From positions 1 to 49,753 of the forward strand of contig JAUIAC010000011.1 of assembly GCA_030425545.1 (NCBI GenBank): a DNA stretch of 49,753 bases, in the 5' to 3' direction. Positions 19,084 to 47,686 of the stretch are shown piece by piece. Below the pieces are notes generated by a model. The model saw only the letters and a list, made by a program, of their open reading frames with translations. It was not told the DNA's origin and made no database searches. Position 1 is the stretch's first letter; each line of letters opens with the position of its first letter. This DNA comes from a bacterium. GTDB lineage: Bacteria; Myxococcota_A; UBA9042. The translations under genes and the position numbers were made by a program.

Positions 19084-19320
19084 GCGCGGTCGCCCTCCTC
19101 ACGCGCGCGGGCGCGCCCGCGCGTCTAAATATCACTTCATTCTCGGCGCCGGGTGCACTCATGTTCGCGCCCAAGCCGACGCGGTCATGGTATCACAACA
19201 CGACGCGGAATAAATGCGCAAACACGCATGGTTACAGAACCTTGAAGGCCACCCTGCGCCGCGTCAGCAAGTGTGTTTGATAAGCCCACGTTGCCCTGCC
19301 GGGGCCTCGTCCGACGAGTC

Positions 19321-23326: not shown

Positions 23327-23944
23327 ATGAAGGTCCAAGTCCGGTACGGGGGACACTGGCGAGAGGTGACCGTGCAAGCCCGTGGCATGGCCGGAGGCGT
23401 CGCAAGCTACCGCGTGTCCGCGCCTGAGGACGTCGCCAAGTTCGACGCCGTGAATACCGTCGTGTCTTGCAAGATTCCCGTAGTGGACCTCCCGGACGAG
23501 GGCCACGAAGAACTCATCGACGCCGGGCTCAGATCACTGGCCATCAACAAGGCCTTCAGCGACGCAGAATACACCTCCAGCGAGGCCTCTGAGGTCCACC
23601 AGGACGACGCGAGCTTGTACTTCCGCGGTCGGGGTCAGTGCCGCGCTCTCACCGCAGCGGCCGATGCCTTAGCCATCATCGCGGAAGCCACTCTGCTCTC
23701 CCTTGACATCGGGATGGCGGGCCTCTGCGCATCCATGCCAGACCTTGCTCCACAGGTGGTGGCGACAGTGGCACGCCGCTTCGTGGCTGATGGCGTTGTT
23801 GTCCTAGCAGAGGACCCTGCCCCTGCCTCGCACAGGTCGGGCGAGAGTCACGCCTACAGACTTGTTGAGGGTGCCGCCGCCATCTTCTACGGTGCGAGCG
23901 TGGCGAGGCTGGCCCGACATGGCGAGTTCAGTGTCAGAAGGTAG
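23327..23944 (+). CDS. Protein of unknown function, first gene of a pair with a nuclease-like protein
   Basis: A 205-residue protein with no recognised family. The N-terminus is beta-rich (KVQVRYGGHWREVTVQARG), the centre is helical (ALTAAADALAIIAEATLLSLDIG) and the C-terminus (MPDLAPQVVATVARRFVADGVVVLAED ... SHAYRLVEG) resembles a winged helix. GGGGAG lies 6 bp before the ATG. The following nuclease-like gene starts 55 bp downstream (or overlaps by 26 bp if an earlier ATG is used), so the two probably work together. The iteron-like repeats 92 bp upstream suggest specific regulation. Confidence 0.6.
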   Translation: MKVQVRYGGHWREVTVQARGMAGGVASYRVSAPEDVAKFDAVNTVVSCKIPVVDLPDEGHEELIDAGLRSLAINKAFSDAEYTSSEASEVHQDDASLYFRGRGQCRALTAAADALAIIAEATLLSLDIGMAGLCASMPDLAPQVVATVARRFVADGVVVLAEDPAPASHRSGESHAYRLVEGAAAIFYGASVARLARHGEFSVRR

Positions 23945-23999
23945 CAACGAGAGGCATCACCCGCTGGAACGGGAGGCGCCCGAACTGAAGGAGTTCTCA

Positions 24000-24785
24000 G
24001 TGTCCATGTCATTTTACGAGTTCGACGACGACCTCCGTCTCCGAAGGGTCGAGGCACTCCCTTCCGAGGCCAAGCCACTGGAGGGGTACGTCGAGGAGAT
24101 GATCAACACCGTCTTTGTGTGGAACATCCGACGACTTGGCCGCGATCTCTGGGGCGACCCTCTCGCCTACCTGTACGGCGACCGCCTTGGATGGTGGGGT
24201 GGCCTCGACGCTGTCTGCGTGGGCCAAAGCGGGAAGCTCTACTTGATCGAGTTCAAGAAGGGCTCGGCCACCCGTAGGGACCTGACGAAGCTAGAGCGCG
24301 ACGTCGTCGAGTTCTGCAACGCCCCTGACAGGGGGGCGCACCTCAAGGAGCGGTATCGGCACCGACACGGATGGCGAAGGTGGGTGGAGCGCCGGATGCT
24401 GGCTGGGTTCCACCTCTACGGCCGCGTGGGCACGATGAAAGACGCCCATGACCTCGTCTACCTCGCCTCGAAAGACAACGACCGGGACCCGGCCTGGTTC
24501 GACAAGACCACAGACCGGGTGGCCGGGCACCTCGTCGAGCGCCCGAAGAAACTGGAGGCCTTCTTGGACGAGCGGCTGGACCTGTGCCTCGCCGACCTCA
24601 ACCTGGAGACGCCGGTCGTGGGAATCGTCTCCACTAGGGTCTCAGGTCCTGCGTGGAAGGACGTCACCAACTCGCTCAGCTCGGCCTGCCCCGGAGCTGC
24701 CTTGCAGCACATCAGCTTCACGCTGTACGCGACGGATAGGGAGAGCACGAACATGTACTATCTGGGCGTGGAGCGCCGAGGTTGA
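24000..24785 (+). CDS. PD-(D/E)XK-type nuclease-like protein
   Basis: A 261-residue protein with the core of a restriction-endonuclease-like fold: a first helix with acidic residues (LEGYVEEMINTVF), then GGLDAVCVGQSGKLYLIEFKKG with Asp70, Glu84 and Lys86 forming the D...E-x-K site. A helical segment after it (RRDLTKLERDVVEFCNAP) fits the fold. The C-terminal part is unassigned. GTG at 24000 is preferred because AAGGAG lies 6 bp upstream; ATG at 24006 and an upstream ATG at 23919 (overlapping the previous gene) are alternatives. The likely role is DNA or RNA cleavage in defence or in the element's own recombination; defence is inference from the island context. Confidence 0.6.
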   Translation: MSMSFYEFDDDLRLRRVEALPSEAKPLEGYVEEMINTVFVWNIRRLGRDLWGDPLAYLYGDRLGWWGGLDAVCVGQSGKLYLIEFKKGSATRRDLTKLERDVVEFCNAPDRGAHLKERYRHRHGWRRWVERRMLAGFHLYGRVGTMKDAHDLVYLASKDNDRDPAWFDKTTDRVAGHLVERPKKLEAFLDERLDLCLADLNLETPVVGIVSTRVSGPAWKDVTNSLSSACPGAALQHISFTLYATDRESTNMYYLGVERRG

Positions 24786-24871
24786 GGTCCGTGCTGGGCC
24801 ATAGCTCTAGTTACCCAGCGTTGCTACTCGGCGGCAGCACGTGAGGCGGGCGCGGGCCTACCGTGGATACC

Positions 24872-24897
24872 CGTATCGACGTTCTTGAAGTGATACG
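24872..24897. promoter_or_regulatory. Loose inverted repeat in the leader of the HEPN gene
   Basis: CGTATC (24872-24877) and GATACG (24892-24897) separated by 14 bases. The half-site TGATACG is shared with the perfect palindrome before the integrase (13707-13728), hinting at one island regulator. No other feature is seen in the 238-bp gap before the HEPN gene. Confidence 0.3.
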
Positions 24898-25023
24898 ACC
24901 GGGGAGCGGCCAACAGGGACAGGCTCGCCCGACTGGTCCGCAAAGACACGAGATGGAGCGGCAGGGCAGAACGGCCGACATTGGCTCTCCCATGCCACGG
25001 CCGCAGAGGCCCGGGAGATTCGA

Positions 25024-26010
25024 ATGAAGCTCATAGTGGATCTCTGCGGCGGCCCCATGAAGTACTGGTCCGGGCAGGAGACGTCGTTCGGCCACCGGGG
25101 CGTGCGCTGGACGCTCACTTGGTGGACAGGCGACGCAGAACGAAAGGCACTCGCCAAGCATGGCCTCTACGCGGCCACGTGCCGATTGGCCACCGAGGTT
25201 GAAGACGCCGACTCGTGGAACGCCCTTCGGGCCAACGTGGACGACATCTGCCTCTGTCTGTCGATCATGTCGCGCGGGACCGTCAAAAAGGCGCGATATG
25301 TCATCACAGAATCCGATAAACGGGTTCAAGAGCGGTGGTTTGCGTGTGTTTCCATGGCGGGCTTCACGATGCAGCCACAGCCCCATCGAGAGCGGGGCAC
25401 GGACCCTGGAGACTTCATCCGGTGGGCACTGCCAAGGCTACACATTGTCCAACAACGGGTGCGCCTCCCGCTCCTGTCCCACCTACTCGCCACCGCCAAC
25501 TCCGACGGAGGCGGTATCGAGGCCACTCGGGTGATACTCGCGAGTTGTCTGGAGGTCATTCGCCACGATTACCTGACGCGAACTCTCATCCCCGAGGGGG
25601 CCGTGCGGCGAGGTGAACAGCCAAACCAGTGGAAGTGGACATCTCCTCCCGAGGGCCTCGCGGCGGATGACACCGTAGGTCTTGCCAGTACCCACAGGCA
25701 CCTTGCCACCAGCCTGAGACTTCGGGGGTCGGCTAAGGCGAACCCATTTTGGTCGTGGTTTCGAAAATGGCGCAACGACGCACTCCACGACCCGGGCATC
25801 AACGACCAACAAACGCCTCGCGACGAGTTTAACGCCGCCATGGTGATCTTGGACTACATCGACGCACTGGTCTTCGCGCTGTTCGACTGGGACGAGGCCA
25901 AGGGCTGCCTCTCCCGGCATGGCCCGGGACACCGCGTCTTGAGCAGAACCACCGACTGGAGGGCGGTACCGCAACCCCCAATCTTGAGTTCCGAAAAGAA
26001 TGCGTTGTGA
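25024..26010 (+). CDS. HEPN-motif protein, putative ribonuclease
   Basis: A 328-residue protein with an R-x4-H signature of HEPN ribonucleases near the C-terminus: WRNDALHDPG with Arg250, polar Asn251 and His255, inside a helical context (FWSWFRKWRNDALHD ... AAMVILDYIDALVFALFDW). HEPN domains cut RNA in abortive-infection and toxin-antitoxin systems. The N-terminal two thirds are unassigned; the layout (unique N-terminal sensor plus C-terminal HEPN) resembles the architecture of single-gene defence proteins such as ApeA, but I cannot show homology. GGGAG lies 6 bp before the ATG. It is 238 bp after the nuclease-like gene in the same direction. Confidence 0.6.
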   Translation: MKLIVDLCGGPMKYWSGQETSFGHRGVRWTLTWWTGDAERKALAKHGLYAATCRLATEVEDADSWNALRANVDDICLCLSIMSRGTVKKARYVITESDKRVQERWFACVSMAGFTMQPQPHRERGTDPGDFIRWALPRLHIVQQRVRLPLLSHLLATANSDGGGIEATRVILASCLEVIRHDYLTRTLIPEGAVRRGEQPNQWKWTSPPEGLAADDTVGLASTHRHLATSLRLRGSAKANPFWSWFRKWRNDALHDPGINDQQTPRDEFNAAMVILDYIDALVFALFDWDEAKGCLSRHGPGHRVLSRTTDWRAVPQPPILSSEKNAL

Positions 26011-26024
26011 TTCCAACGGTATCC
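25984..26024 (+). repeat. Imperfect direct repeat, copy A
   Basis: Starts TTGAGTTCCGA, followed by AGAAT and TGATTCCA blocks; about three quarters of it matches 27358-27397 with one gap. It overlaps the last codons of the HEPN gene. The two copies bracket the membrane-protein gene. Confidence 0.5.
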
Positions 26025-26374
26025 AGGGTAGGAGGTGCAACCGGTTTGCAGAACGCCATCCGGCATCCACTGGCTACGAGGTAAGGATGGAAGGGAAACA
26101 GGGACATGTTCGAGGTTGAATCTTTGGGAGTCTAAACGGTGGCCTGCTGACCGTCGAGCGCGATGGTCGCTGGCAGTCGAGAGTCGGCATTCCGATTCAC
26201 CCGCGCCTTCCACAGGAGACCGCTGTGGCCAGTACCGCCTCAAGAAGCTGTAGGCTCTGCGCGGTGCCTGAGGACAAGTACAACAAAAATTGCTCCTGTG
26301 CAGACGTGACACGCCGAGTTGAGAGCGGTACGGTTGGCTTATCAGGCCATACTCCCGACTTCTGAGGCTAAACC
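26011..26374. other. 364-bp stretch without a convincing gene
   Basis: Between the HEPN gene and the membrane-protein gene. It starts within copy A of the direct repeat. Only a 33-codon GTG frame near 26263 is open toward the next gene, too short to call. No clear promoter or terminator is seen. Confidence 0.4.
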
Positions 26375-27145
26375 ATGTCTGACCCCTCCTCGATGCCCCC
26401 TTGGCGGCGAAGACTGAATATTGGCTGCGGCGCACTTTTTGGCATGGTAATGCTGGCAGGCCTCGTCGCCAGGGTGTTTGGTGTCTCCCTGGAGTCTCCG
26501 ACGACTCCCGCGGCGAAGGTTGTGGTCGCTCCGGGGTCACAAGCGCCCACGACACAAGGAGCCCGTGGCTCAAACTTGGATCTCCATGAGAGGGAGCCGG
26601 GCAGCGAGCAGGCAACGCCGCCGCCGCAGGAGGAAGAACGGTCAGCTATTGTGAGCCTGGGGGCATTCTTTTACGGGGTTACGCCGGTTTGGCTGGTTTG
26701 TTGGGTGGTTTGGCTCGGCATCGCAGGACTGAGCACGATGATGCTTGCCGGATCTACGCTGGAGCCGGATGAAGCTCTGATGGGAGTCACCGCGGCGGTT
26801 GGAGTCGGGGCCGTGAGCAGCGGACTGCGAGGCACGGGATTCATGGCGGGAGCTAGAAGGTCCGCTGGTAACCTACTGGGCGCATTCCTTGTGGTCCCGG
26901 CATTCCCGGCTCTTCATCTGTTTCTCATTTTCGGGCCGCTGGCTGTTGCCATGGGTGATGACTGGTTCTATGCCCTCATTCTCGCCGCGCTGAGCCTAGT
27001 CGCGTGCTACGCGGCGGCCGCTGCCGCCTGGGCGATGGCGACCGCCTGGCTCGCACATCGAAGCCAATCTGCTGGTCTCGCAGCAGCTGGGAGCATTGGT
27101 TTCATGTCGGCTCTGTCGGCAGGCTGCATGCTTATTGCCCTCTAG
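26375..27145 (+). CDS. Membrane protein of unknown function
   Basis: A 256-residue protein with an N-terminal hydrophobic segment (about 15-37), a polar Pro/Glu-rich periplasmic or cytoplasmic loop (about 42-90) and about four further hydrophobic segments to the C-terminus (for example GVTPVWLVCWVVWLGIAGL and LGAFLVVPAFPALHLFLIFGPLAVAM). No conserved motif is recognised. It is the last gene before attR. Membrane proteins often sit beside nuclease or HEPN genes as effectors in defence loci, but nothing in the sequence ties it to them directly. The start has GAGG 9 bp upstream. Confidence 0.6.
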   Translation: MSDPSSMPPWRRRLNIGCGALFGMVMLAGLVARVFGVSLESPTTPAAKVVVAPGSQAPTTQGARGSNLDLHEREPGSEQATPPPQEEERSAIVSLGAFFYGVTPVWLVCWVVWLGIAGLSTMMLAGSTLEPDEALMGVTAAVGVGAVSSGLRGTGFMAGARRSAGNLLGAFLVVPAFPALHLFLIFGPLAVAMGDDWFYALILAALSLVACYAAAAAAWAMATAWLAHRSQSAGLAAAGSIGFMSALSAGCMLIAL

Positions 27146-27357
27146 TAGCTGGCCGAGATGTACCGCGACCAACCTGGCCGCCGAAAAGGTCGAACTCGGG
27201 CTCGTGTTGCGATCTCGTGATGGCGAAATTGGGTCCAACTCTGTCCAACGCTGGAGCAGTTGACCGCGGTGATAGGGACGCAACTGTTCGAATGAAGCCA
27301 AAGTCGACGGGAAGAAGCCGTCCCCTGAGGCCCTGACGAGTTGCGTGAGTCGAGAAT

Positions 27358-27397
27358 TTGAGTTCCGACAGAATACGCCCTGATTCCAGCAGCATCC
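27358..27397 (+). repeat. Imperfect direct repeat, copy B, near attR
   Basis: Partner of 25984-26024. Its end contains the 20-bp sequence CAGCAGCATCCGCCGTCCCG (27387-27406), which occurs in exact inverted orientation at 13681-13700, just upstream of the integrase. Confidence 0.5.
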
Positions 27398-27456
27398 GCC
27401 GTCCCGACGGAACATTTGAGGGGTCAAGGCCTCGGAATCAGTGACTGCACCCTGTC

Positions 27457-27479
27457 TTCGACTCCCGGCGTCTCCACCA
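27457..27479 (+). repeat. attR, right copy of the 23-bp attachment core
   Basis: Identical to the last 23 bases of ssrA (12406-12428), ending TCTCCACCA. It marks the right end of the island; the original downstream chromosome resumes at 27480. Confidence 0.92.
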
Positions 27480-35534: not shown

Positions 35535-37928
35535 TCACCGCGGCGGCGCTCGCAGGTCGGCGACCGGCGTCGCCCGGTGACGGCGCCGCAGCGAGCGCGG
35601 CGCGTCGGGCGCGAGCGCGCCGCGAACCACGCGCGCCAGCATCATCGCGGGGGGCTGGGTCGCCAACGCGGGCACGTCGCTCACCGCCGCGGCGATGCGG
35701 GCCACCTCGTCTTGGGCCCAGCGCGGCAGCGTCCCACGCACGTCGGGCGAGAGGTGACTGACGAAGAGGGCGGAGCCCCACGGGTGCAGGGACCAACCGG
35801 CGTTCGTGAGCGCGAGCCACGTTCGCACCAGCGCCCGACCTGCGGCGAAGAGCGGGCACCCCTCTGCGGTGGGCGGGCGCAACACCAGCGCAGCGGCGCT
35901 GTCGGTGAAGGCGTCCAAGGCCGGCGTCGTCAGCGCGCTTCCCAGGCGCAGCTCCGCCAGGGTGTCCAGCGCCGGGCCGTGGAGCATCAGCGGCAGCCCC
36001 GCCTGCCCCGCCGCGTCCAGCCCGAGGGTGGCCACGTCCATGCCGTCGCCCGTGGCGCGCGCCTCGTCGGCGGACCAGCGCAGCTCTCCCGCCAGCTCAC
36101 GACGCCAGCTCGGCAGGAGGAAGCGCAGCCGGTCCGCCTGGCCAGCGAGGCGCCCCAGCTCCCTCAGGGCCGCGCGCTCGGTGACCAGGTCCACACCCGC
36201 CGGCGCGCCCGCCGCGCGCACCGCGTCGGCCAGCGCCGTCGGCAGCGCCTGCCCCGCCACCACATCGCGGCAGGTGAAGCGTCGGCGCGCCGCGTCGAGC
36301 AGCGGCGACACCTCCCCGGGGCCAGGGGTCAGCCGCACGTCCACGTGCCAGCGCGGCGCCCACGGCTCCGGCGCCGTGAGGGTCGCCACCAGACCGCACG
36401 CCGGCGCCGCCAACAAGACGAGCTCGGCCACGCTGCCGGCCGCCATCCGCACCGACACCCGCCCCGGGTCCATGGCTGGCACGGGGCGGTCCGGGTCGTC
36501 TTCGATGCGCAGCGTGTCGCCGCGCCAGGTCAGCCGCCACGGCTGCGCGTTGCCGCCGCTCGGCGCCAGCACGGCGACGTCGGTGAGCGCCTGCCGCAGG
36601 GCGTCTCCGGCCGCGCCGACGAAGGTGGCGCTGCCCGTCCTGGCTGCCGCCGCCGCCGCCCCCAGCGCCTGCAGCTGCGAGGGCGACGGCGCGTCGCGTG
36701 GGTCCAGGGTCTCGACCTGCGCCGGCGTCGCGGGCGCGCCGCGCGCGGCTGGCTGGGGCCCCGGTGGCGTCAGCAGCTGGTCCAGCGCGACGGTCGCCCG
36801 GCCGCTGTCGACCGACTGCCCGAGCGCCAGCCGGCGGGCGACGTCGGTGACCATCGCCGCGCCCAGCGCCACGCTCGACGCCAGCTGCGGCCACGACGCC
36901 ACGGTCTGCCCCATCTCCAGCAGCGAGGCGGCGGTCCGCGGCGAGAGCACACCGAGGCCCATGGCCGCCATGACAAAGGCCACGCGGGCGCCCTCGTCTC
37001 CCGCCCTCAGGGCGCTCAGGTCGACCCCGTCCACCAGGCCGTGCAGCAGGGGCCGCGCGGGCTCGAGGTCGAAGCGCTCCAGGTCGAGCAGCCCGCCCTC
37101 GGCCGTCGCCATCAGCACGGGGACGCCAAGGACCCGAGCCCGCTCGCGCAGCTGGACCTTCAGCGGCAGGTCGTCGCACTCCTCCACCAGCAGGTCCACC
37201 GGTCGTCCGTCGGCGGTGCACAGAAAGGCGTCCAGGTTCGCCGGGTCCACGCCCTCCGCGAAGCCGACGAGGGTCAAGAAGGGGTCAACACCGGCCAGGG
37301 CGCGCCCCGTCAGCGCCAGCTTGGGCAGCCCCAGGTCGCCGACGTCGGCGCGCAGCCGGTTCAGGTTCGACAGGTCGAGCGTGTCGAAGTCTGCGAGGTG
37401 GAACGTGCCCCCCACGCCCTCCTGCGCCATGCACACGGCGATGGCTTGCCCGACGGAGAGCCCGGCGACGGCGATCCGCGCCGCGCCCAGCTGAACCTGC
37501 TCGTCGGCGGTGATCTTGAGCCGATTGCGGTCCAGCCGCAGCCTCCGGTGCAGCGCCGGTGGCAGGGTCCGGACCAGCCGCCTCCGCCAGGGCTGCAGCA
37601 CCCACCGTCCCCAGCGCTGCACCCCCTGGGGCGCCACGTCGGCGAGCCAGGCGGCGACCTCCACGTCGCTCGGACGGTCCCCCCCGCGCTGGGCGCGCAG
37701 CAGGTCGCGCACCTGCGCGTCCAGGGTGTCCACCACCTCCAACGCGCCGGGGGCTGCGTCGTCGAGCAGCGCCGCCAGCGCCACCACGTCGGCCGGGTCC
37801 GCCGGGTCGTAGACCTGCACCCGCCAGCGCGCGTCGGTCGGGCGGCGCCGCGACCGCAGCGCCTCGGTCAGCGCCGACAGCCTGTCGCCCGCGCTCCGCT
37901 CCCCGTCTCGCCCCACCGCCTCGCTCAT
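35535..37928 (-). CDS. E1-like (ThiF) and nitroreductase-like fusion protein, Rv1355c type
   Basis: A 797-residue fusion. Residues about 120-300 contain an E1/ThiF-like adenylylating domain: IAVAGLSVGQAIAVCMAQEGVGGTFHLADFDTLDLSNLNR (nucleotide-binding loop plus the D-x-D...NLNR motif) and DLLVEECDDLPLK. Residues about 450-690 look like a nitroreductase-type FMN fold (VAVLAPSGGNAQPWRLTW). This pairing is known from the poorly understood Rv1355c family. Its substrate is unknown; adenylylation of a small protein or metabolite followed by a redox step is a guess. The start ATG overlaps the stop of the hybrid kinase by 4 bp (ATGA), so it is the last gene of the signalling operon and translationally coupled. 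Confidence 0.75.
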   Translation of the reverse strand: MSEAVGRDGERSAGDRLSALTEALRSRRRPTDARWRVQVYDPADPADVVALAALLDDAAPGALEVVDTLDAQVRDLLRAQRGGDRPSDVEVAAWLADVAPQGVQRWGRWVLQPWRRRLVRTLPPALHRRLRLDRNRLKITADEQVQLGAARIAVAGLSVGQAIAVCMAQEGVGGTFHLADFDTLDLSNLNRLRADVGDLGLPKLALTGRALAGVDPFLTLVGFAEGVDPANLDAFLCTADGRPVDLLVEECDDLPLKVQLRERARVLGVPVLMATAEGGLLDLERFDLEPARPLLHGLVDGVDLSALRAGDEGARVAFVMAAMGLGVLSPRTAASLLEMGQTVASWPQLASSVALGAAMVTDVARRLALGQSVDSGRATVALDQLLTPPGPQPAARGAPATPAQVETLDPRDAPSPSQLQALGAAAAAARTGSATFVGAAGDALRQALTDVAVLAPSGGNAQPWRLTWRGDTLRIEDDPDRPVPAMDPGRVSVRMAAGSVAELVLLAAPACGLVATLTAPEPWAPRWHVDVRLTPGPGEVSPLLDAARRRFTCRDVVAGQALPTALADAVRAAGAPAGVDLVTERAALRELGRLAGQADRLRFLLPSWRRELAGELRWSADEARATGDGMDVATLGLDAAGQAGLPLMLHGPALDTLAELRLGSALTTPALDAFTDSAAALVLRPPTAEGCPLFAAGRALVRTWLALTNAGWSLHPWGSALFVSHLSPDVRGTLPRWAQDEVARIAAAVSDVPALATQPPAMMLARVVRGALAPDAPRSLRRRHRATPVADLRAPPR

Positions 37929-40753
37929 GCTCTGCCCCTGTCGTCCTGGGTCTCGCTCGACTTCGCCCGCCGCGGCAGCCAGAGCACGAAGCACGCGCCG
38001 CCCTCACTCGGGGGCGCCAGCTCCAGGGTGCCGCCGTGGAACTCCGCGATCTCCCGGGAGATCGCCAGCCCCATGCCGGTGCCTTCCCCCGGCGCCCGGG
38101 TGGTGTGAAAGGGCGCGAAGACGCGGTCCCGCTCCGCCAGCGGCACGCCCGGCCCGTCGTCCGTGACCCGCACCTCGGTCCCGCGCCCGTCCTGCCGCAC
38201 CGCCACGGTGACCGTGTCCCCCGCCGCCAGCCCGTTGACCACCAGGTTTGTCAGCGCCTGCGCGATGAGGTCGGGTTGGCACACGAAGTCTGGATCATCG
38301 CCCAAGGCCCGCACCAGCGCCTTGCCCTCGGTCAAGCGGTGGCCGAGCAGGGCGCTCAGCTCGTCCAGGCACGCCGACATCCGCATCGGCCGCCACTGCA
38401 GCCGACCGGCGTCGTGGCGGGCGAACTCCTGCACGGCCCGCACGATGCGCTCGATGCGCACACCACCCCGCTGCACGGCGTCGAGCAGGGCCACACGCTC
38501 CGCCGGCTCCAGGTCGAGCTCCGTGTCTTTCAGCAGCCGCACAGACTGCAGCAGCGCGTTGACCGGGTTCAGCACCTCGTGGGCCAGGCCAGCGGACAGC
38601 GTGCCCATCAGCTGCGACTTCTCCGACCGGATCAGCTGGTGCCGCAGGCGCACGACCCGCAGGTGCGTGCCGATGCGCGCCAGGAGCTCAGGCGCCGAGA
38701 AGGGCTTGCGGATGAAGTCGTCCGCCTCCGCCTCGAAGCCTGCCAGCGCGGCCTCGTCGCCGTGGCGCGCGGTGATGAGCAGCACAGGGATGCGCGCCGT
38801 GGTCGGGTCGGCCTTCAGCGCGCGGCACAGACCGTAGCCGTCGAGCACGGGCATCATCACGTCTGAGAGCACCAGGTCGGGGAGCCGCTCGCGCGCCACA
38901 GCGACGCCGGCGGCGCCGTCTGGGGCGGTCAGCACGCCATAGCGTCGCCCGATGACCCGGGCCATGTATCGCCGCAGCTCCGGGTTGTCTTCGACGATCA
39001 GCACGAGACCCTCCGCCTCGCGCAGCGCCGCGTCGTCGTCGGTGCCGTCGGTGGGGGCTGCAGGGCTCGGCGCGTCGCCCTCTGCGCGCTGCTCCGGCAG
39101 CCGCAGGGCCGTGGTGAGCGCGTGCGCGCCGTGGGCGTCTTCGGCCGGCGTCGCCCAGACCTCGGCCGCCGCTGGCTGGGCGGGCTCCGCCAACCCGTCG
39201 AGGCGAGGCCACCGCAAGGTGAACCGCGCGCCAGACTGCGCTTCGCTCTCCAGCGTGACGGCGCCGCCGTGCAGCGCGAGGATCTCGGCGACCATGGCCA
39301 GCCCGATGCCGCTGCCCTCCACGGGACGACCGGTGCCGTCCGCGGCGCGTCCAAAGCGCTCGAAGATGTGGGACTGCTGCTCCAGCGGGATGCCCGGTCC
39401 GTCGTCGCTGACCCGCACCCAGGCCACGTCGCCCGGCTCTGCCTCCTCGCCCTCGACGCCGTACGACACGTCGATGTGCGCGCCCTCCGGGCAGTACTTC
39501 ACCGCGTTCACCACCAGGTTGACCACAGCCCGGGTCAGCAGCCCGCGGTCGGCGCGCACCGTCACCGGCGCGTCGGCCTGGGCGAAGGTCAGCGCCATGC
39601 GTCGCGCCTCCGCCAGGGGCCGCAGCGTGGCCAGCGCGTCCCCGAGCTCCCGCCCGAGGTCGAACTGGGCCGGCCGAACGGGCATGCGATCCGCATCGAG
39701 CCGGGCGAAGTCGAGGATCTCGTTGATCAAGCGCAGCAGGCTCTGGGCGTTGCGCCGGACGCCGCGCACCTCGTCCCGCTGGGCCATCGCGTCGGTGCGG
39801 TCGAGCCACTGTTCGAGCTCCCCAAGGGGCGCCAACATCAGGGTCAGCGGCGTCTTGAACTCATGGCTGACGTTGGTGAAGAACGCGCTGCGCCCAGCGT
39901 TGGCCCGCTCGAGCTGGCGCACGCTGTCTTCGAGCTGGGCCCGCGCCGTCTCGAGCTCGGCGGTGCGCTCACTCACCATCTCGGCGAGGTTCGCGCGCAG
40001 CGCCTCCAGGTCGCGGACCTTGCCGGCGAGCTCGCTGCGGGCGGCGTCGACCTCTGCCACCCGCTCCATGAGCAGCCGGTTGGTCTCCAGCACGGCCTCG
40101 CCGGCCTCCCGCTGTGCCGTCAGCAAGAGCCGCACGCGGCGGAAGGGCCATGTGATCAGCGCGACCGCGCGCTCCACCGGCCCGCTCCAGGCGCGGAAGG
40201 TGATGGCGACGTCGACCGTGAGCGCCCCGCTGCGCTCGAGCCGCACGTCGGCAGGGCTAGCGCCCAACATCACCGGCATGCTCGACAGGACGCCGCGCGC
40301 GGTCTCCAAGAACGCGTCGCTGGGCGGGCACCCGGGGTTGAACCGGTACTCCCCGACCATGGTCTCCGGCGACGTGGACCGCAGCTCCAAGGTGAAGAAG
40401 CGAAAGAGGAAGCGGCGCATCATCCCCGGCATCTGACGGTAGAGGAGGTGCGGCGACACGAGCGTGCGCGACGCCGTCCGCAAGAAGCCGAGCCCCCGGC
40501 CCCGACCGACGCTCCCACCGATGTCGAAGAAGAGGTCGTCGCGCTCCGGAAAGCGCCGCCGCACCGCCTGTTCCACCGCCACGAGTGCGTCGAGGTCGAC
40601 CCAGCCGCCGCGCCGCAAGAGGGTCGCCTCCGGCCAGCCTGCGTCCGCCAGCTCACGGCGCACCGCGGCGACGTCCTCGCCCTCCGCCTCGAGCCAGTCC
40701 CAGAAGACCTGAAAGGCCTGGGTGCTCACCGCCGCGCCCCTGTTGCCTTCCAT
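37925..40753 (-). CDS. Hybrid histidine kinase with kinase-receiver-kinase architecture
   Basis: A 942-residue soluble sensor. Residues 1-200 form an uncharacterised N-terminal domain (QAFQVFWDWLEAEGEDVAAVRREL ...), and about 220-290 are coiled coil. The first kinase core follows with His297 in VSHEFKTPLTL, an N-box NLVVNAVKY and the G-boxes DDGPGIP and GSGIGLAMV. A linker leads to a receiver domain with phospho-acceptor Asp631 in LVLSDVMMP. A second kinase core then has His725 in LAHEVLNPVNALLQ and its own G-boxes (DDGPGVP, GTGMGLAIS). The double kinase layout is unusual. GGAGAGAAGG precedes the ATG. It is 31 bp from the PilZ gene upstream and overlaps the E1-like gene downstream. Confidence 0.85.
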   Translation of the reverse strand: MEGNRGAAVSTQAFQVFWDWLEAEGEDVAAVRRELADAGWPEATLLRRGGWVDLDALVAVEQAVRRRFPERDDLFFDIGGSVGRGRGLGFLRTASRTLVSPHLLYRQMPGMMRRFLFRFFTLELRSTSPETMVGEYRFNPGCPPSDAFLETARGVLSSMPVMLGASPADVRLERSGALTVDVAITFRAWSGPVERAVALITWPFRRVRLLLTAQREAGEAVLETNRLLMERVAEVDAARSELAGKVRDLEALRANLAEMVSERTAELETARAQLEDSVRQLERANAGRSAFFTNVSHEFKTPLTLMLAPLGELEQWLDRTDAMAQRDEVRGVRRNAQSLLRLINEILDFARLDADRMPVRPAQFDLGRELGDALATLRPLAEARRMALTFAQADAPVTVRADRGLLTRAVVNLVVNAVKYCPEGAHIDVSYGVEGEEAEPGDVAWVRVSDDGPGIPLEQQSHIFERFGRAADGTGRPVEGSGIGLAMVAEILALHGGAVTLESEAQSGARFTLRWPRLDGLAEPAQPAAAEVWATPAEDAHGAHALTTALRLPEQRAEGDAPSPAAPTDGTDDDAALREAEGLVLIVEDNPELRRYMARVIGRRYGVLTAPDGAAGVAVARERLPDLVLSDVMMPVLDGYGLCRALKADPTTARIPVLLITARHGDEAALAGFEAEADDFIRKPFSAPELLARIGTHLRVVRLRHQLIRSEKSQLMGTLSAGLAHEVLNPVNALLQSVRLLKDTELDLEPAERVALLDAVQRGGVRIERIVRAVQEFARHDAGRLQWRPMRMSACLDELSALLGHRLTEGKALVRALGDDPDFVCQPDLIAQALTNLVVNGLAAGDTVTVAVRQDGRGTEVRVTDDGPGVPLAERDRVFAPFHTTRAPGEGTGMGLAISREIAEFHGGTLELAPPSEGGACFVLWLPRRAKSSETQDDRGRA

Positions 40754-40784
40754 GGGCCTTCTCTCCTGGCGCAGGCTGCGCCTC

Positions 40785-42890
40785 TCACTCGTCGGGCGGC
40801 CGCTTCGGCGCCAGCAGCGCCGCCACGTGCTCCAGAAAGTCCGGCAGCAGGTGGCGCTCGATCGCCCAGAGCTTGCCGTGGCCGAGGTCCACCAGACCCG
40901 CCGCGCTGGCGTCGGCGGCCGGCCACACCTCGCGGTAGAGCACGAAACGGGTCTTGCCCAACGACTCGTACCAGCGCGCGCCGGCTGCCAGCAAGGCGGG
41001 AAAGGCGGCCTCCCCACCATGGGTGAAGGCGAAAACACGCACGCTGTCGAGCAGGCTGAACAGGCTCGCGCCCGTCTCCCCGGTCTCCAACACCGCCGCG
41101 GCCACCGGCTGCCCGTGCCGGGAGGCCACCACGCAACGCCGGTCGCGGTGGAGCCCCACGCGCCGCCACTTGGCGCGGATCTGGGCCAGGTCGAAGGAGG
41201 CCGCGGTCAGGTCCAGGCATGCCTGCCAGGAGCGCGGCCGGGTCCGCTCCAGGTGGGCCAGCAACACCGCCACCCCCTCGTCGTCGGCGTCGGCCAGGAG
41301 CACACCCTCCGGCGGCTCGGCCTGCATCGCCGCGCACTGACCCTCCATGAGGTGAAAGTCCACCAGACAGGTGTCGTCGCCCGATCGCCCCGCCACCCAG
41401 CCGAACTGCGCCACCTGATTCCACGGCACGCTGCCCTCGAGGTAGCCGGCGACCCAGCGCAGCTGCTTGTCGTGCTGCATGTGCTCGAACACCCGCGCGT
41501 AGAGCTCCCGGAGCACCTTGCGGGGCGGGGCGAGCGAGGGATCGGGCCGGTCTGGGGACTTGGCCAGCTGGTAGCCGAACCAGGTCTGCGCGTAGGTCTT
41601 CACGAAGGTGAAGGTGGCCTCCACGCCGCGGTCTGAGGGCCACACCGCCTGGCAGCCGAGCCAGGGCGCCGCGTCGAGCCCGCGGCTCACCTCGCGGTAC
41701 GAGCCTTGCAGCCCCTCGAACTGCCTCGGCGTCTTGCCCGAGAGGTGGAAGTAGCCCGAGTCGGTGTAGACCCGCCACGACTGCAGGCTCCAGGCGGCGC
41801 CCGAGCGCGTGCGTGGGTTCAGCAGGTGATGCACCAGGTTGATCCAGCGGGCGTCGTCTCCGGGGGTCTGCGGCTCGAAGCTGAGGCCGCAGACCGCCTC
41901 GCCGCCCCCGTCCTGCATCGACGCGGGCCGCTCGGTGACATGGTGCACCAGGGCGCGGCCCTCACACACGATCTCGCCGTGGAAGTGCACCGACACGTCG
42001 CTGAGCTCCAGCCCGGGGCTGAGCAGGTCCTCTTCCGGCCAGAGCCACACCGCGAGGCCGGTCGTGCTCACGTCGCGCAGCCGTCGCACCCGCTCCTGGG
42101 CCGGCCACATGGGGTGCCGATACGACATCACCAGCCCGTCGGGCGCCCGCGCGCGGCGCCGCCACCGGCGTCGCTCGGCCAAGAGGAGATCGGGCAGGGG
42201 CACCTGCACGATGAGGCCGCGCTGACTCCCGCGCGGCTGTCGGACGCGCTCACCGTCGGCCGCGGCGAAGCGATAGCGCGCGTAGGGGCCGTCGAGCTCC
42301 ACGTGGAAGAGCGGCTCCGGCAGCGGTCCCTGCACCGCCAGCTGCAGCCCGTCGGCCTCGACCGCGCGCAGCCGCACCGGCCAGGGCATGCCGTGGGCGG
42401 GGAGCAGGTAGCCTCGCGCGTCACTGCCGGCCAGGGCGCGCAGCCGGCGGATCGCCGACTTGCCCTCCAGGTGCCAGCGCGACGCGACCCGGGTCGGCTC
42501 GAGGCCCAGCGCGCCGCGCGCCAGCTGCGTCGTCACCAGCTCGTAGAGCGAGGCCGCGTCGGCCTGCGCCAGGGTGCCAAAGCGCAGCTCCAGCTCCTCG
42601 CCCGGCGTGGCCCAAGACAGGGTGCACGGCAGCGGGCCCAGGTCGCGGTAGCCCATGGACAGGGTCGCGGTCGTCGAGCCCGTCGGCAGCGAGGCGGGGG
42701 CCTCGTTCAGCAGGCGCGCGCGGATCGCATGGAGCGCCACGCGGGTCACCACGAGCGGCGTCGGGATGCCGGCCACGCCGACCTGAAAGGACGCCCGTGT
42801 CGCCAGGACACGGTAGCCAGGGGGGCGCCAGGGCGGCCGCTCGCCGCGGGGATCGAGGGTCTCCGTCAGCGCCACCGGGCTCACGCTCAT
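40785..42890 (-). CDS. PilZ-domain protein with acyltransferase-like C-terminal region
   Basis: A 701-residue protein. A PilZ-like c-di-GMP-binding region lies at about residues 240-340, with a basic RRRWRRRARAPDG segment (the R-x3-R box) and RRLRDVSTTGLAVWL (D-x-S-x-x-G box, Asp near 274). Residues 1-230 may be a YcgR-N-like domain. The C-terminal part (about 540-701; CVVASRHGQPVAAAVLETGETGASLFSLLDSVRVFAF) resembles a GNAT/N-acyl-transferase fold. It could couple c-di-GMP to an acyl transfer or to the neighbouring phosphorelay. The start overlaps the stop of the upstream REC-kinase gene by 4 bp (ATGA). Confidence 0.65.
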   Translation of the reverse strand: MSVSPVALTETLDPRGERPPWRPPGYRVLATRASFQVGVAGIPTPLVVTRVALHAIRARLLNEAPASLPTGSTTATLSMGYRDLGPLPCTLSWATPGEELELRFGTLAQADAASLYELVTTQLARGALGLEPTRVASRWHLEGKSAIRRLRALAGSDARGYLLPAHGMPWPVRLRAVEADGLQLAVQGPLPEPLFHVELDGPYARYRFAAADGERVRQPRGSQRGLIVQVPLPDLLLAERRRWRRRARAPDGLVMSYRHPMWPAQERVRRLRDVSTTGLAVWLWPEEDLLSPGLELSDVSVHFHGEIVCEGRALVHHVTERPASMQDGGGEAVCGLSFEPQTPGDDARWINLVHHLLNPRTRSGAAWSLQSWRVYTDSGYFHLSGKTPRQFEGLQGSYREVSRGLDAAPWLGCQAVWPSDRGVEATFTFVKTYAQTWFGYQLAKSPDRPDPSLAPPRKVLRELYARVFEHMQHDKQLRWVAGYLEGSVPWNQVAQFGWVAGRSGDDTCLVDFHLMEGQCAAMQAEPPEGVLLADADDEGVAVLLAHLERTRPRSWQACLDLTAASFDLAQIRAKWRRVGLHRDRRCVVASRHGQPVAAAVLETGETGASLFSLLDSVRVFAFTHGGEAAFPALLAAGARWYESLGKTRFVLYREVWPAADASAAGLVDLGHGKLWAIERHLLPDFLEHVAALLAPKRPPDE

Positions 42891-44047
42891 GAGGCCTCGG
42901 CTTCGTGCGCTGGGACGCTCAGCTGCCACAGGGTCCAGCCGTCCTCCTGCCCACCCACGAGCTCGATGCTGCCGCCGTTGGTCAGCGCCAGCTCGCGCGC
43001 CACCACCAGCTCGAAGCCGTGGCGGCCCTCGCCCTCGCGCAGGCTGAACAGGCGCTCCTGCGTGCCCGGCTCCACCGGTGGGCCGTCATCGCGCACGGTG
43101 ATCACCGTGGTGCCGCCTTCGTCGCGCGCCGCGATCTGGATCTGACCGTCGCTCCGGCCGCTCGCGCGCAGGGCGCGCCCGGCGCTCCGCACCAGGTTGA
43201 GCAGGATCCGGCTGAGGTCCGTGCGGTCGGCGAAGGCCACCAACCCCTCCGGACACGCGCCGTGCAAGCTCGCGGTCGGCGCCTGCTCCGGCCGCGCCAG
43301 CTCGACCACCAGGGTCACCAGCTCGGGGATCGACACGAGGCCGCGCTCCGGCTTTCGGCTCGCGCGCCCGTCCTTGGGGGCCCCCTGCTCCCGCAGCGCC
43401 GAGACGTAGTCCACGTAGTGCCGCAGCTCGCCCACCTCGCCGCTGTAGCGCTCGAAGATGTCGGGGTCGACGCGCTGGCTGAGCCGCTCTCCCAGGGCCT
43501 CGAGGTTGTCGCAGCAGGTCTCGATGGAGGCGTTGGTGGTGGCGAGGTCGTGCAGCAGCCGGAGCGTGGCGGCCTGCACACCCACCAGCCGCTCCTTGTC
43601 GAGGATCGCCGAGCGCAGCTTGCGGACCATGCGCTCCAGGTGCGCGCGCGCCACCGCCTCGCGCAGCACCTGCCGAACCTGCTCGGCCTCCCAGGGCTTG
43701 GTGATGTAGCGGCTGACCCCGCCTTGGTTGATCGCGGCGATCGCCACCTGCGTGTCGGAGTAGGCCGTCACCAGCATCCGGATCACGTCCGGCCGGTGGG
43801 CCCGGACCCGCTCACACAGCGTCACCCCGCTCATCCCCGGCATGCGCTGGTCCGTGAGCAGCACCGCCACCGGGACGATGTCCAGCAGCTCCTCCGCCTC
43901 GGCCCCCGACGACGCCGTGATCACCTCGAACTCGTCCCGAAACGTGGTCCGGAACACCAACAGGTTGTCGGGCTCGTCGTCGACGTAGAGCACGGGGTAG
44001 GCCCGCGAGAAGCCGAGCGCGCGCGGTGGTGGAGCAGAGGTGTTCAT
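42887..44047 (-). CDS. Response regulator-histidine kinase, second of a tandem pair
   Basis: A 386-residue protein with an N-terminal receiver domain (VLYVDDEPDNLLVF, phospho-acceptor Asp66 in VLLTDQRMPG, Lys in ITKPWE) joined to a kinase-like region. A possible phospho-His lies in LRLLHDLATTN (His166); the ATP-binding part has NLVRSAGRAL, RDDGPPVEPG and GRHGFELVVAREL, where the usual G-loop GxGLGL is degraded to RHGFEL. It may therefore be a weak or inactive kinase acting as a regulator. The gene overlaps both neighbours by 4 bp (ATGA junctions). Confidence 0.8.
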   Translation of the reverse strand: MNTSAPPPRALGFSRAYPVLYVDDEPDNLLVFRTTFRDEFEVITASSGAEAEELLDIVPVAVLLTDQRMPGMSGVTLCERVRAHRPDVIRMLVTAYSDTQVAIAAINQGGVSRYITKPWEAEQVRQVLREAVARAHLERMVRKLRSAILDKERLVGVQAATLRLLHDLATTNASIETCCDNLEALGERLSQRVDPDIFERYSGEVGELRHYVDYVSALREQGAPKDGRASRKPERGLVSIPELVTLVVELARPEQAPTASLHGACPEGLVAFADRTDLSRILLNLVRSAGRALRASGRSDGQIQIAARDEGGTTVITVRDDGPPVEPGTQERLFSLREGEGRHGFELVVARELALTNGGSIELVGGQEDGWTLWQLSVPAHEAEAS

Positions 44048-45180
44048 CCGGTCGGGGGTCGCTCCCTGGGCACGGTCAAGAGGAATCGAGCGCCTTCACC
44101 GGTCACCGGTGCCGCCAGGGTCAGGGCCCCCCCTTCACCCATGGCCAGCTCGCGGGCGATGGCGAGGCCCAGGCCAGGGCTGTCCGCGCGGGTCGAGAAC
44201 CCCTCGTCGAACACCCGGGCGCGCAGGCTTTCAGGGACCCCCGGGCCGTCGTCGAGAACCGTCACCTGCACGCGCCCGTCGTCTCCCTGTCGGCACTGCA
44301 CCCGCACCCGCCCCTGTGGCGTGTCGGCGGCGCGCAGCGCGTGGAGGGAATTGTAGATCAGGTTCATCAAGATGCGAGATAGGTGAAGCCGGTCGACCCA
44401 GGCGGTCAGGGCGGTGTCCGCGCTGATGTCGAGGCGCGCCGCGTCCTCGGCCGGGAACATACGGGTGATCAGCGTGAGGGTCTCGCTCAGCCGTACGAGC
44501 TCTGGCTTTCTCTGCAGCTTTCCGGGCAGCAGCCGCAGCTCGCTGTGCAGGCCGCTGATCAGATCCAGCGCCTGGCGCAGGACTCGCATCGCTTCGACCC
44601 CGTCCTGTTGCTCGAAGGCCTCAAAGTTGGAGCGGTTCCGCTCGAAGATCTCCTGGAGCGCGTCGAAGCCGAGGTCGGCGATGCCGGCCGCGTTGCCGAG
44701 GTCGTGGGCCACGCGCTGGCGGATCGCGTCCAAGGCCAGGAGCCGCTCGCGCTCCAGCAGCGTCCGCCGCAGCTCCGCCTCGCGCAGCTGGAGCGCGGCC
44801 TCGGCCACGGCGTCTCGCAGCAGCCCGTCGAGCTCCTCGACCTGCCACGGCTTGTCGATGAACGCGTGCACGCCGCCCTCGTTGATGGCGGTGACCGCGG
44901 CGTCTCGGTCGCCCCACGCGGTCAGCACGATGCGACGCGTGGCGGGCCAGCGGCTCCGCACCTCGGCGCACAGCGTGACGCCGCTCATGCCGGGCATGCG
45001 CTGGTCGGTCACCAGCACGGCCACCGGTCGCTCCTCCAGGAGCCGGAGCGCGGCCAGGGCGTCGGGCGCCGTGAGCACGTCGTAGCGCTTCGAGAAGGTG
45101 TGCCGGAGCACGAGAAGGTTGTCGGGCTCGTCGTCCACGAAGAGGACGGGGTGAGCGCGGAGGAAGGCTGGATCGGTCAT
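44044..45180 (-). CDS. Response regulator-histidine kinase, first of a tandem pair
   Basis: A 378-residue receiver-kinase protein, clearly a paralogue of the next gene. The receiver has VLFVDDEPDNLLVL, Asp59 in VLVTDQRMPG and Lys in IDKPWQ. The dimerisation helix has His159 in RVAHDLGNAAG, and the ATP-binding domain is intact: NLIYNSLHAL, LDDGPGVPESL and GLGLAIARELAMGEGG. Input therefore comes from another kinase onto its receiver, controlling its own kinase output. ATG at 45180 is chosen because the receiver starts right after it; an in-frame ATG at 45417 would add an implausible basic leader. It is the first gene of the five-gene operon; GGAG lies about 14 bp upstream. Confidence 0.85.
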   Translation of the reverse strand: MTDPAFLRAHPVLFVDDEPDNLLVLRHTFSKRYDVLTAPDALAALRLLEERPVAVLVTDQRMPGMSGVTLCAEVRSRWPATRRIVLTAWGDRDAAVTAINEGGVHAFIDKPWQVEELDGLLRDAVAEAALQLREAELRRTLLERERLLALDAIRQRVAHDLGNAAGIADLGFDALQEIFERNRSNFEAFEQQDGVEAMRVLRQALDLISGLHSELRLLPGKLQRKPELVRLSETLTLITRMFPAEDAARLDISADTALTAWVDRLHLSRILMNLIYNSLHALRAADTPQGRVRVQCRQGDDGRVQVTVLDDGPGVPESLRARVFDEGFSTRADSPGLGLAIARELAMGEGGALTLAAPVTGEGARFLLTVPRERPPTG

Positions 45181-45511
45181 CGCTGCGGGTGGCTCCAGGG
45201 GCAGACGGGGGGCGCACGACCAGTCGGGGGGCGATCGTGCTGCGTCGGGTTGAGACCGGCCTGCGCCGCACAGCGTACCGCGTCGGCGTGCGATCGCAGG
45301 GCACCGGCGGCCGCTGTGGCCCGAGGAGCCGAAACGGAGCGGGAGGGCGTGAGTCAGCACGTGGACTTCCCGCCGATGGTCCCCCGCTCGGGGGATGGCT
45401 GCCGCAGCCTTGTCCATAGCCGGTGGCGGGCGCGGACGCTACCGTGACAGCGCCGTTGGTCCCGCGCGGTCGACCCGACCGAACGACGCTGGCGTTGCCG
45501 TAGGAGCTTCC
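45181..45511. promoter_or_regulatory. Divergent promoter region of two signalling units
   Basis: 331 bp between two divergent regulator genes. A symmetric palindrome TCCCCC-GCTC-GGGGGA (45380-45395) lies about mid-way and may be a shared operator. No sure -10/-35 boxes are seen. TAGGAGCTTCC at the right edge is the ribosome binding site of the plus-strand gene. Confidence 0.45.
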
Positions 45512-47686
45512 ATGCGCGCTTATGCTTGGCTTCACTCCACGCCGCTCTTCGTCGCCTGCGAGCGTGGGCTCACCAGCGCCGGGTTCACCACGGAGCGCGT
45601 CGCCACCCCGCGCGACCTGCTGGCGACCCTGGCCCGGCAGCACGCCTCGGCTGTGGTCGTGGACGCGACCGAGGGGCGCGCGCGCGTCGCCGACGCGTTG
45701 ATGCCGGACCTCTGCGCGCTGCCGGGGCAGAAGCCGCTGCTCGTGGCGGTGGTCGACCGGGTCGACAGCGCGGCCGCGGCCACCTTGGCCGAGGCGGGCG
45801 TGGACCTGCTGATCACGCCGCGCAGCGCCGAGCGAACGCTCACGCGGCGGGCCCGTCGCGCGCTGCGCCGCTCGGCCGCCCAGCACGTGACGCAGACGCT
45901 CCCGGTGCATCGCGCTGACCTGACTCCGGTGCTGCTCGACATCGCGCTGCGCCTGGGCCAGACGGCGCCGAAGGACCTGGACGCGGCTGTCTCCGACGCC
46001 CTGCACCGCTTCGCGACCGCGCAAGGCCTCGACGACGCGGCCGTGTTCCTGCTGGACGCGAAGCGGGAGCTCTACGCGCCGTGGGTGCGCTGGCACGCCG
46101 GGGCGCCCAACGCCGGGCGTGCGCTGCCCCGGCCGCTGACGTCGATGCCGTGGGCCGCTGAGCGGCTGCTGTCGCGTCGGTGTGTGCACGTGGCGCACCT
46201 GGGCGACCTCCCGAGCGACGCGGTGCTCGAGCGCCGGCAGCTGCACACCCGCGGCCTGCACGCCTGGGCCGCCGTGCCCCTGGCCCCCGGGCGGGACGTC
46301 GTCGGCTTCGTCTCCCTGGGCCGATGCGCGAGCAGCACCCACTGGTCCGAGCCCGAGGTGCGTGCGCACGACCAGTTTGCCCAGCTGCTCTGCCAGGCGT
46401 GGGCGCGCCGCCGCCCCACCGGCGGCACTGGCGACGCCACCCGCAGCAGCCGCTGGCAGCTGGAGGCCGGGGTGACCGCCGCGCGCGCGGCCAGCGCCCT
46501 GGGCCGCGAGGTCAGCCAGATGATCGCCATCATCGACGCCCACGCCCAGCAGCTCATCGCCGAACAGACCGGCGCTGTCCCTGCGCTGGGGGCGTCCGAG
46601 GCGTCGGGCTCGCGCGCGCCGTCGAGCGCCGCGCTCGTGCCGGGGCGGAGCGTGGCCGACACCGGGCCGCTGCTGGAGGCGGTGGAACACATGCGCGGTC
46701 TCGGACGGCAGCTGGCCGCCTTCGACGTCGACGCGCCGGCGCGCACCTCCCGCGTGCATCTCAACGACCTCGTCGTCGACCTGGACGGGCTCATGCGCGC
46801 GATGCTGGCGGGCCGCGCCCCCTTCGCCTTGCGCTGCGAGGCCGCGCGCCCGTGGGTGTCGTGTGACCCCCTCTGGCTGCGGCGCGTGGTGGCGCACGCG
46901 CTCGTGGCCGCGTGCGACGTCGGGGGGCTGAGCCGGGTCGACGTGCTGACGCAGGACGACGCCGGCGGCGTGCGTCTGTGTGTCCGGGTCGAAGGCTGCC
47001 GGTGGAGCGAGGCGGGCGTGACGACCGTGGTGCCGCAGCGGCCCGAGGCGCAGGTGCGCACCGGGCAGCAGGTGGACCGCTCGCGGCGGTCTCGAGCGCC
47101 CACCCAAGTGGCAGAGCCGGGAGAGATCTTGCGGGGCGACGACGCCCGCGAGGGGGACGCGCTGCCGCACGCGGACATCAGCGGGCTCCTGGAGAGCGTG
47201 CGCGCGCGGGGGCTGAGCGTGCGCATCGAGGCGCGCCCGCGTGGGGCCGACCTGACGGTGACCCTGCCGCACGCCGACCGGTTGGCCCGCGGTCAGCGCA
47301 CGGCTCCCTTTGGGGGGGCGCCGCACCAGCGGGTGCTGGTCGTGGACGACGACAAGCTCCTGCGAGGGCTGGTGGTCCGCATCCTCGTCCGGGAGGGCTA
47401 CGACGTGCTGCAGGCCGCCGACGGCGAGGAGGCGCTGGAGGTGGTCCGCAAGGCCGGGGGCGTCGTGGACCTGCTGGTCACCGACTTCTACATGCCGAAG
47501 ATGAACGGCTCGCTGCTCGCCCGGCGCCTGGCTGAGGTTCAGCAGGGGGTGCGCACCCTCTTCATGTCGGCCTACGCCAACGAGGACAAGCTGGTGGAGC
47601 TGATGGGCGGGCCGGTCGCGTTTCTGCCCAAGCCCTTCCGCCAGCACCAGCTGGCCAACTCGCTCGCCGACCTCGCCGCGGCCTGA
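45512..47686 (+). CDS. GAF/degenerate histidine kinase protein with C-terminal receiver domain
   Basis: A 724-residue signalling protein. Residues 1-110 look like a receiver fold without the usual phospho-acceptor (VVVDATEG). About 150-300 form a GAF-type sensor (LHRFATAQGLDDAAVFLLD ... AVPLAPGRDVVGFVSLGR). About 315-570 are kinase-like but degraded: no convincing phospho-His box and an ATP-binding part with weak G-boxes. About 607-724 are an intact receiver (VLVVDDDKLLRGLVV, Asp658 in LLVTDFYMP, Lys in FLPKPF). It thus may receive phosphate from one of the divergent operon's kinases. AGGAG lies 5 bp before the ATG. Confidence 0.8.
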   Translation: MRAYAWLHSTPLFVACERGLTSAGFTTERVATPRDLLATLARQHASAVVVDATEGRARVADALMPDLCALPGQKPLLVAVVDRVDSAAAATLAEAGVDLLITPRSAERTLTRRARRALRRSAAQHVTQTLPVHRADLTPVLLDIALRLGQTAPKDLDAAVSDALHRFATAQGLDDAAVFLLDAKRELYAPWVRWHAGAPNAGRALPRPLTSMPWAAERLLSRRCVHVAHLGDLPSDAVLERRQLHTRGLHAWAAVPLAPGRDVVGFVSLGRCASSTHWSEPEVRAHDQFAQLLCQAWARRRPTGGTGDATRSSRWQLEAGVTAARAASALGREVSQMIAIIDAHAQQLIAEQTGAVPALGASEASGSRAPSSAALVPGRSVADTGPLLEAVEHMRGLGRQLAAFDVDAPARTSRVHLNDLVVDLDGLMRAMLAGRAPFALRCEAARPWVSCDPLWLRRVVAHALVAACDVGGLSRVDVLTQDDAGGVRLCVRVEGCRWSEAGVTTVVPQRPEAQVRTGQQVDRSRRSRAPTQVAEPGEILRGDDAREGDALPHADISGLLESVRARGLSVRIEARPRGADLTVTLPHADRLARGQRTAPFGGAPHQRVLVVDDDKLLRGLVVRILVREGYDVLQAADGEEALEVVRKAGGVVDLLVTDFYMPKMNGSLLARRLAEVQQGVRTLFMSAYANEDKLVELMGGPVAFLPKPFRQHQLANSLADLAAA

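Follow-up and report, generated by a model that had tools for sequence, protein, structure and literature searches.

The 49,753-nucleotide stretch of contig JAUIAC010000011.1 analyzed here (GCA_030425545.1; Myxococcota_A, UBA9042), hereafter the window, comes from an uncultured myxobacterium and carries a five-gene operon on its minus strand (45180-35535) in the order g1-g2-g3-g4-g5. Two receiver-kinases (g1, g2) are followed by a putative PilZ-acyltransferase (g3), a double-kinase hybrid (g4) and a predicted fusion of a ThiF-like cyclase with a flavin-dependent oxidase (FDO; g5). The original prediction, made from the letters alone, had described five coupled genes with ATGA overlaps at three junctions and a 31-bp gap at the fourth, and re-deriving the open reading frames and junctions returned exactly this layout, with overlaps at g1/g2, g2/g3 and g4/g5 and the gap between g3 and g4. 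Third-position G+C is 0.87-0.95 in the g1, g2, g3 and g5 frames, and a single run of a sigma-70/terminator scan returned no consensus promoter and one terminator, at chance level. The same order and tight coupling are seen again in other Myxococcota genomes at 28-57% identity, so the five-gene arrangement exceeds chance. We propose that the operon is probably a regulated module for N-acyl-oxazolone synthesis, in which g3 would acylate an amino acid, g5 would cyclize and desaturate the product, and a phosphorelay would exert control.

The predicted enzymes encoded by g5 and g3

Profile searches place g5 in the Rv1355c/TrzS family. The protein scores 560.3 bits against NF005901 (the Rv1355c family) over residues 30-787, above the curated equivalog cut-off of 476; its ThiF half matches PF00899 (8.5e-14), and a profile search links the nitroreductase-like part at its C-terminus to the flavoprotein Acg (structure 2ymv, 1.9e-24), in agreement with the earlier call of an Rv1355c-like ThiF/nitroreductase fusion. 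Arg191, Lys203 and Asp252 align with the ATP-site residues R73, K86 and D130 of MoeB (phmmer) and are invariant in 11 homologues, and by offset Asp252 would be the counterpart of TrzS Asp217. When placed by offset only, TrzS R540 falls on Arg600 of g5, which is nearly invariant, and Q651 falls on a His, which the Rhodococcus plasmid copies also carry at this position. The window g5 differs from otherwise invariant columns at two positions only and shares 32-35% identity with the homologues compared from actinobacterial plasmids; its branch in the g5 tree is long, and the tree, in which 8 of 17 inner branches are weak, leaves gain versus loss of the kinases undecided. Two further arrangements of these domains were noted: one Myxococcota genome (G139) has a second, separate nitroreductase/FDO gene converging on g5 (L094 6300-7538), and a Streptomyces plasmid (L044 4839-6637) has a GNAT gene overlapped by a ThiF gene that shares 46% identity with part of g5, with flavin oxidase absent among the genes listed for that plasmid.

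The family has characterized members. Rv1356c-Rv1355c is TrzA-TrzS (Kleetz et al. 2025), found in Mycobacterium tuberculosis, M. smegmatis and Rhodococcus jostii RHA1: TrzA N-acylates tryptophan, and TrzS, a ThiF cyclase joined to a flavin oxidase, performs an ATP-dependent cyclization and an O2-dependent desaturation to yield an N-acyl tryptazolone (PMC12856293). OxzAB of Pseudoalteromonas rubra and TyzACB of M. tuberculosis lead from tyrosine or phenylalanine to products of the tyrazolone type (PMC10404671). The original prediction could name no known signaling system with an enzyme of this kind at its end. Routes to N-acyl oxazolones that combine an acyltransferase, a ThiF enzyme and a flavin oxidase have been published for TrzAS, OxzAB and TyzACB, and this part of the prediction therefore falls. 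Because TrzS, OxzAB and TyzACB perform this chemistry, the most likely role of g5 is that of an oxazolone cyclase-oxidase, and by analogy it would cyclize an N-acyl amino acid with ATP and desaturate it with O2.

For g3 the evidence is structural. The window copy has no Pfam or NCBIfam match, its phmmer matches are antibodies hit by chance, and searching the PDB with a profile of the g3 alignment gave no match. Pfam PilZ lies above the gathering cut-off in the orthologues of G009, G031, G340 and G311, and also in G024; the c-di-GMP (cyclic di-GMP) motifs RxxxR and D/NxSxxG (RxxxR ... RDVSTTG) are intact in the window g3 at residues ~239-278. An AlphaFold2 (AF2) model has a local predicted distance difference test score (pLDDT) of ~81-92 over most of the PilZ domain and matches MrkH, YcgR and VCA0042, including structures of c-di-GMP complexes (best E 1.6e-7). 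The C-terminal model (predicted template modelling score 0.79) matches tandem GNATs by Foldseek, best VipF (1.3e-11) and also a histidine N-acetyltransferase (9emd/9emp). The PilZ assignment made earlier thus holds, as does the acyltransferase-like one at the level of fold, and we propose on the basis of these models that g3 may be a c-di-GMP-gated amino-acid N-acyltransferase. One orthologue, in G014, contains two in-frame TAG codons (L035 3778-5889), and g2 and g4 of that genome are split into several frames, reflecting either assembly errors or a decaying copy.

Proteins with related architecture have been described. PixB (MXAN_2604) of M. xanthus is a PilZ-PilZ-GNAT protein that binds c-di-GMP and acts on motility and development (PMC8316039); its layout resembles that of g3, but the available part of that paper reports no ThiF-FDO enzyme with PixB. 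Nas343 and Nas354 synthesize N-acyltyrosine and also carry PilZ (PMC4897644); unlike g3, they start with a FeeM-type domain and have one PilZ domain at the C-terminus, and they lie outside ThiF-FDO/kinase operons.

Linkage across Myxococcota and the kinase genes

Across a sample of 379 Myxococcota genomes, a strong g3 match occurs in 17 of the 22 genomes with g5 and in 7 of the 357 others (Fisher p 6e-20, in a test where the genomes are not independent). Within the class of the window genome, the Rv1355c family is present in 6 of ~52 genomes, and full relatives of g3 occur in those six. The two genes adjoin, or have only g4 between them, in 18 genomes of the sample (G000, G014, G025, G031, G048, G139, G155, G173, G202, G263, G293, G297, G340, G369, G371 and G372, together with the more diverged G078 and G320), and in G009, whose locus is split over two contigs, the start of g4 directly follows g3. 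Ten genomes have g4 between g3 and g5 (G000, G009, G014, G025, G031, G048, G139, G155, G202 and G297), eight of them with a REC-kinase upstream. Nine genomes have the g3-g5 pair with no kinases detected in the fetched flanks, and the two genes overlap or nearly touch in most of the kinase-free pairs measured. A genome scan for g3 with two narrow peptide patterns returned only five loci already known from metagenome-assembled genomes; a broader profile search found more.

The synteny search therefore found the PilZ-acyltransferase/Rv1355c-like pair recurring with kinases in related genomes, where the original prediction had left room for the genes to be unlinked. Its view of a single pathway survives in the form of a conserved module, but a pathway ending in the enzyme is too strong a description given the nine loci without detected kinases. 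Because these nine loci keep the pair, we regard the g3 and g5 enzymes as the core and the phosphorelay as a conserved but optional layer. Upstream of the ThiF-FDO gene of G365, which has no g3 (L098 2-9460), lie genes for two proteins, one a GAF-histidine kinase and the other a Ser/Thr kinase-AAA-GAF-histidine kinase of 1705 aa.

Pfam supports the earlier calls of two receiver-kinases, for which the REC and kinase domains are secure, and of a double-kinase hybrid. The g1 protein scores 78 bits for PF00072 and 64 bits for PF02518 and is 42% identical to its G014 orthologue. In an alignment of 11 orthologues its N-box and G2-box are intact; in g2 the N-box Asn is replaced (NLVRSAGRAL) and the G2-box is lost. 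The same degeneration is seen in G014 g2 and in G009, and most other loci have a single-copy, intact REC-kinase, so g2 is probably a pseudokinase paralogue of g1. Phosphorelay domains with conserved His and Asp residues (HisKA and HATPase, REC) are otherwise present in the operon. The conserved N-terminal domain of g4 (g4N) returned only chance matches against Pfam and the PDB; g4 orthologues carry weak GAF matches that the window g4 lacks. The best g4N scores in a phylum-wide profile scan are confined to g3/g5-type loci, although this specificity is partly circular, with nine of the best loci used to build it and G014, G009 and G216 held out. This pattern would fit a locus-specific sensor, for which g4N is a candidate. 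Weaker g4N relatives occur elsewhere in Myxococcota genomes.

Coordinates are collected in Table 1. The divergent neighbor has a likewise placed but diverged homologue in G014 (30% over 507 columns), with none seen at the other loci, and possibly belongs with the operon. Elsewhere in the window, the transfer-messenger RNA gene ssrA lies at 12065-12428, and its last 23 bases (12406-12428, TTCGACTCCCGGCGTCTCCACCA) are repeated exactly at 27457-27479. The stretch between the repeats has lower G+C and contains a Prim-Pol gene (15413-17890), and 12406-27479 has the look of an integrative element of ~15 kb that entered at ssrA. At 460-6031 lie respiratory genes for alternative complex III (molybdopterin/FeS protein, NrfD, ActD).

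Table 1. Window positions of the operon genes, of regions within them and of the divergent neighbor
Feature	Position	Strand	Description and basis
g1	44044..45180	-	REC + HATPase; N-box and G2 box intact
g2	42887..44047	-	second REC + HATPase protein, with degenerate ATPase boxes
g3	40785..42890	-	701 aa; predicted PilZN-PilZ + tandem GNAT acyltransferase
g3 PilZ domain	41856..42173	-	residues ~240-345; motif table, AF2 model
g3 tandem GNAT region	40812..41798	-	residues ~365-693; AF2 + Foldseek
g4	37925..40753	-	N-terminal domain + HisKA-HATPase-REC-HisKA-HATPase; Pfam
g4N	40064..40753	-	230 aa, candidate sensor domain of g4; alignment
g5	35535..37928	-	797 aa; predicted ThiF-like cyclase + flavin-dependent oxidase, TrzS/Rv1355c family
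g5 Asp252 codon	37173..37175	-	aligns with MoeB Asp130 (ATP site)
Divergent neighbor gene	45395..47686	+	GAF + degenerate kinase + REC; Pfam

A proposed oxazolone module and its alternatives

The conserved gene set, the family of g5, the association of g3 with g5, and the motifs and fold of g3 are observed, and the enzymatic half of the proposed module is well supported. The tandem GNAT of g3 would N-acylate an amino acid, probably an aromatic one, with acyl-CoA or acyl carrier protein as the acyl donor and with c-di-GMP binding to the PilZ pair presumed to switch this transfer in one direction or the other. The ThiF half of g5 would then adenylate the carboxylate with ATP and close the oxazolone ring, which the flavin half would desaturate with O2 as in TrzS. 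For the regulatory layer, which we propose to be a dedicated phosphorelay, g4 may sense a signal through its N-terminal domain and pass phosphate to the g1/g2 REC-kinase proteins, which could in turn influence expression or the translationally coupled g3. We infer the c-di-GMP gating, the substrate and the signal sensed by the kinases. The window genome encodes 13 GGDEF domains. GGDEF genes also adjoin trzS on Rhodococcus plasmids, independently of Myxococcota, and the c-di-GMP turnover genes rv1354c and rv1357c flank trzAS in M. tuberculosis (PMC12856293); together these provide an independent link to c-di-GMP.

Compared with the known pathways, the operon shares with TrzAS the same ThiF-FDO fusion family, an adjoining acyltransferase gene and nearby c-di-GMP genes, but differs in that its predicted acyltransferase belongs to another sequence family and is fused to a PilZ pair, and in having a phosphorelay within the operon. 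With OxzAB and TyzACB it shares the logic of acyltransferase, ThiF cyclase and flavin-dependent oxidase, although those systems use other oxidase subclusters, and PilZ domains or kinases are not reported for them in the available part of their source. The literature we searched, with short coverage of subscription papers, contained no description of the g1-g5 combination. We read the operon as a regulated variant of the known OxzAB/TrzAS biosynthesis and not as an unknown type of E1 signaling.

Several observations weigh against this account. The distribution is patchy, with the operon in none of three same-genus genomes; g5 lacks a g3 partner in G141, G267 and G365, and G226 carries g1-g3-g4 but no g5. 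A g3 profile has no detectable relation to the putative TrzA adjacent to trzS in Rhodococcus (hhalign probability 0.1%), so the role of g3 as an N-acyltransferase rests on the GNAT fold and the linkage, and g3, if it is an acyltransferase, would be a functional replacement of TrzA and not its orthologue. The PilZ motif is degenerate in the paired g3 copies of G372, G078 and G320, and partly in G173 and G009, meaning that c-di-GMP gating cannot be universal. Any phosphotransfer link between the kinases and g3 or g5 is hypothetical, and GNATs with PilZ domains may acetylate proteins instead.

This last point leads to an alternative that we consider unlikely, in which the target that g3 acylates under the control of c-di-GMP is a protein, for example a kinase or one involved in motility, and g5 receives its substrate from an acyltransferase encoded elsewhere. 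The action of PixB on motility and development, through a substrate still unknown (PMC8316039), would suit such a role, as would the lack of TrzA-like sequence in g3 and the existence of g3-family genes with no g5 partner. However, g3 is the sole acyltransferase candidate beside g5, the 18 linked genomes mostly have the two genes overlapping or nearly touching where measured, nine loci retain the pair with no kinase detected nearby, and loci without g5 often have different enzymes of small-molecule tailoring next to g3.

The pair might instead make N-acyl dehydro-amino acids of the stieleriacine or thalassotalic-acid type, with the oxazolone ring only an intermediate. The stieleriacine, thalassotalic and kyonggic acid clusters share the gene set of acyltransferase, ThiF and nitroreductase, and no oxazolone was observed from them (PMC12479983); oxazolones also readily hydrolyze (PMC12856293). 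Given that the fused ThiF-FDO form has been shown to yield oxazolones in OxzB and TrzS, we find this outcome rather improbable.

It is less probable still that the kinases are loosely associated, control something else and occupy their position by accident. The nine loci with no kinases detected between or beside g3 and g5 would allow this, but g4 separates the two genes in ten genomes of several families, a REC-histidine kinase lies upstream in eight, and related kinases also accompany PilZ-GNAT genes that have no g5.

Finally, we attach very little credence to the ThiF part being an E1-like protein-modifying enzyme in signaling or defense, since its matches to the E1/MoeB/ThiF superfamily and a weak PADLOC E1-E2 match (26.6 bits) stand against a fused Acg-like flavin oxidase, membership in the experimentally characterized TrzS family (PMC12856293) and scans of the operon genes with Pfam, NCBIfam and PADLOC, which turned up no ubiquitin-like, E2 or peptidase partner. 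E1-like tagging and anti-phage defense were set aside; the "E1-like" label of the original prediction is correct for the superfamily, but we read the domain as a small-molecule carboxylate adenylating cyclase and not as a protein-tagging enzyme.

A possible wider class of PilZ-GNAT cassettes and significance

Other tailoring enzymes adjoin g3-family genes that lack g5, often together with hybrid kinases. Beside the PilZ-GNAT gene lie an AMP-ligase and a B12-radical S-adenosylmethionine (SAM) enzyme (L105), a B12-radical SAM enzyme (L109), a methyltransferase and a radical SAM enzyme (L108), or a Trp halogenase and a cytochrome P450 (L111). The tailoring enzymes beside these g5-less relatives favor a role of g3 in small-molecule synthesis and point to a possible wider class of small-molecule cassettes linked to c-di-GMP and phosphorelays. 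A more speculative extension, which we hold to be doubtful, is that the PilZ-GNATs of Myxococcota are central to a family of small-molecule signaling cassettes: a c-di-GMP-switched N-acyltransferase would make the acyl-amino-acid core, enzymes particular to each locus would tailor it, and a hybrid kinase likewise particular to the locus would sense the product with its N-terminal domain, in a manner resembling LuxI/LuxR but based on c-di-GMP and phosphorelay.

What N-acyl oxazolones, a recently discovered class of small lipids, do physiologically has been called a major unresolved question (PMC12856293), and the same holds for the substrate on which PixB and other c-di-GMP-binding GNATs act (PMC8316039). 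By tying a proven oxazolone enzyme family to a predicted c-di-GMP receptor-acyltransferase and a phosphorelay, the operon makes both questions testable, with the prediction that c-di-GMP switches oxazolone synthesis and that the signal for the kinase may be the product or a condition calling for it. The module would also extend oxazolone biosynthesis into Myxococcota, where kinase-free pairs occur in large-genome members, perhaps including culturable relatives.

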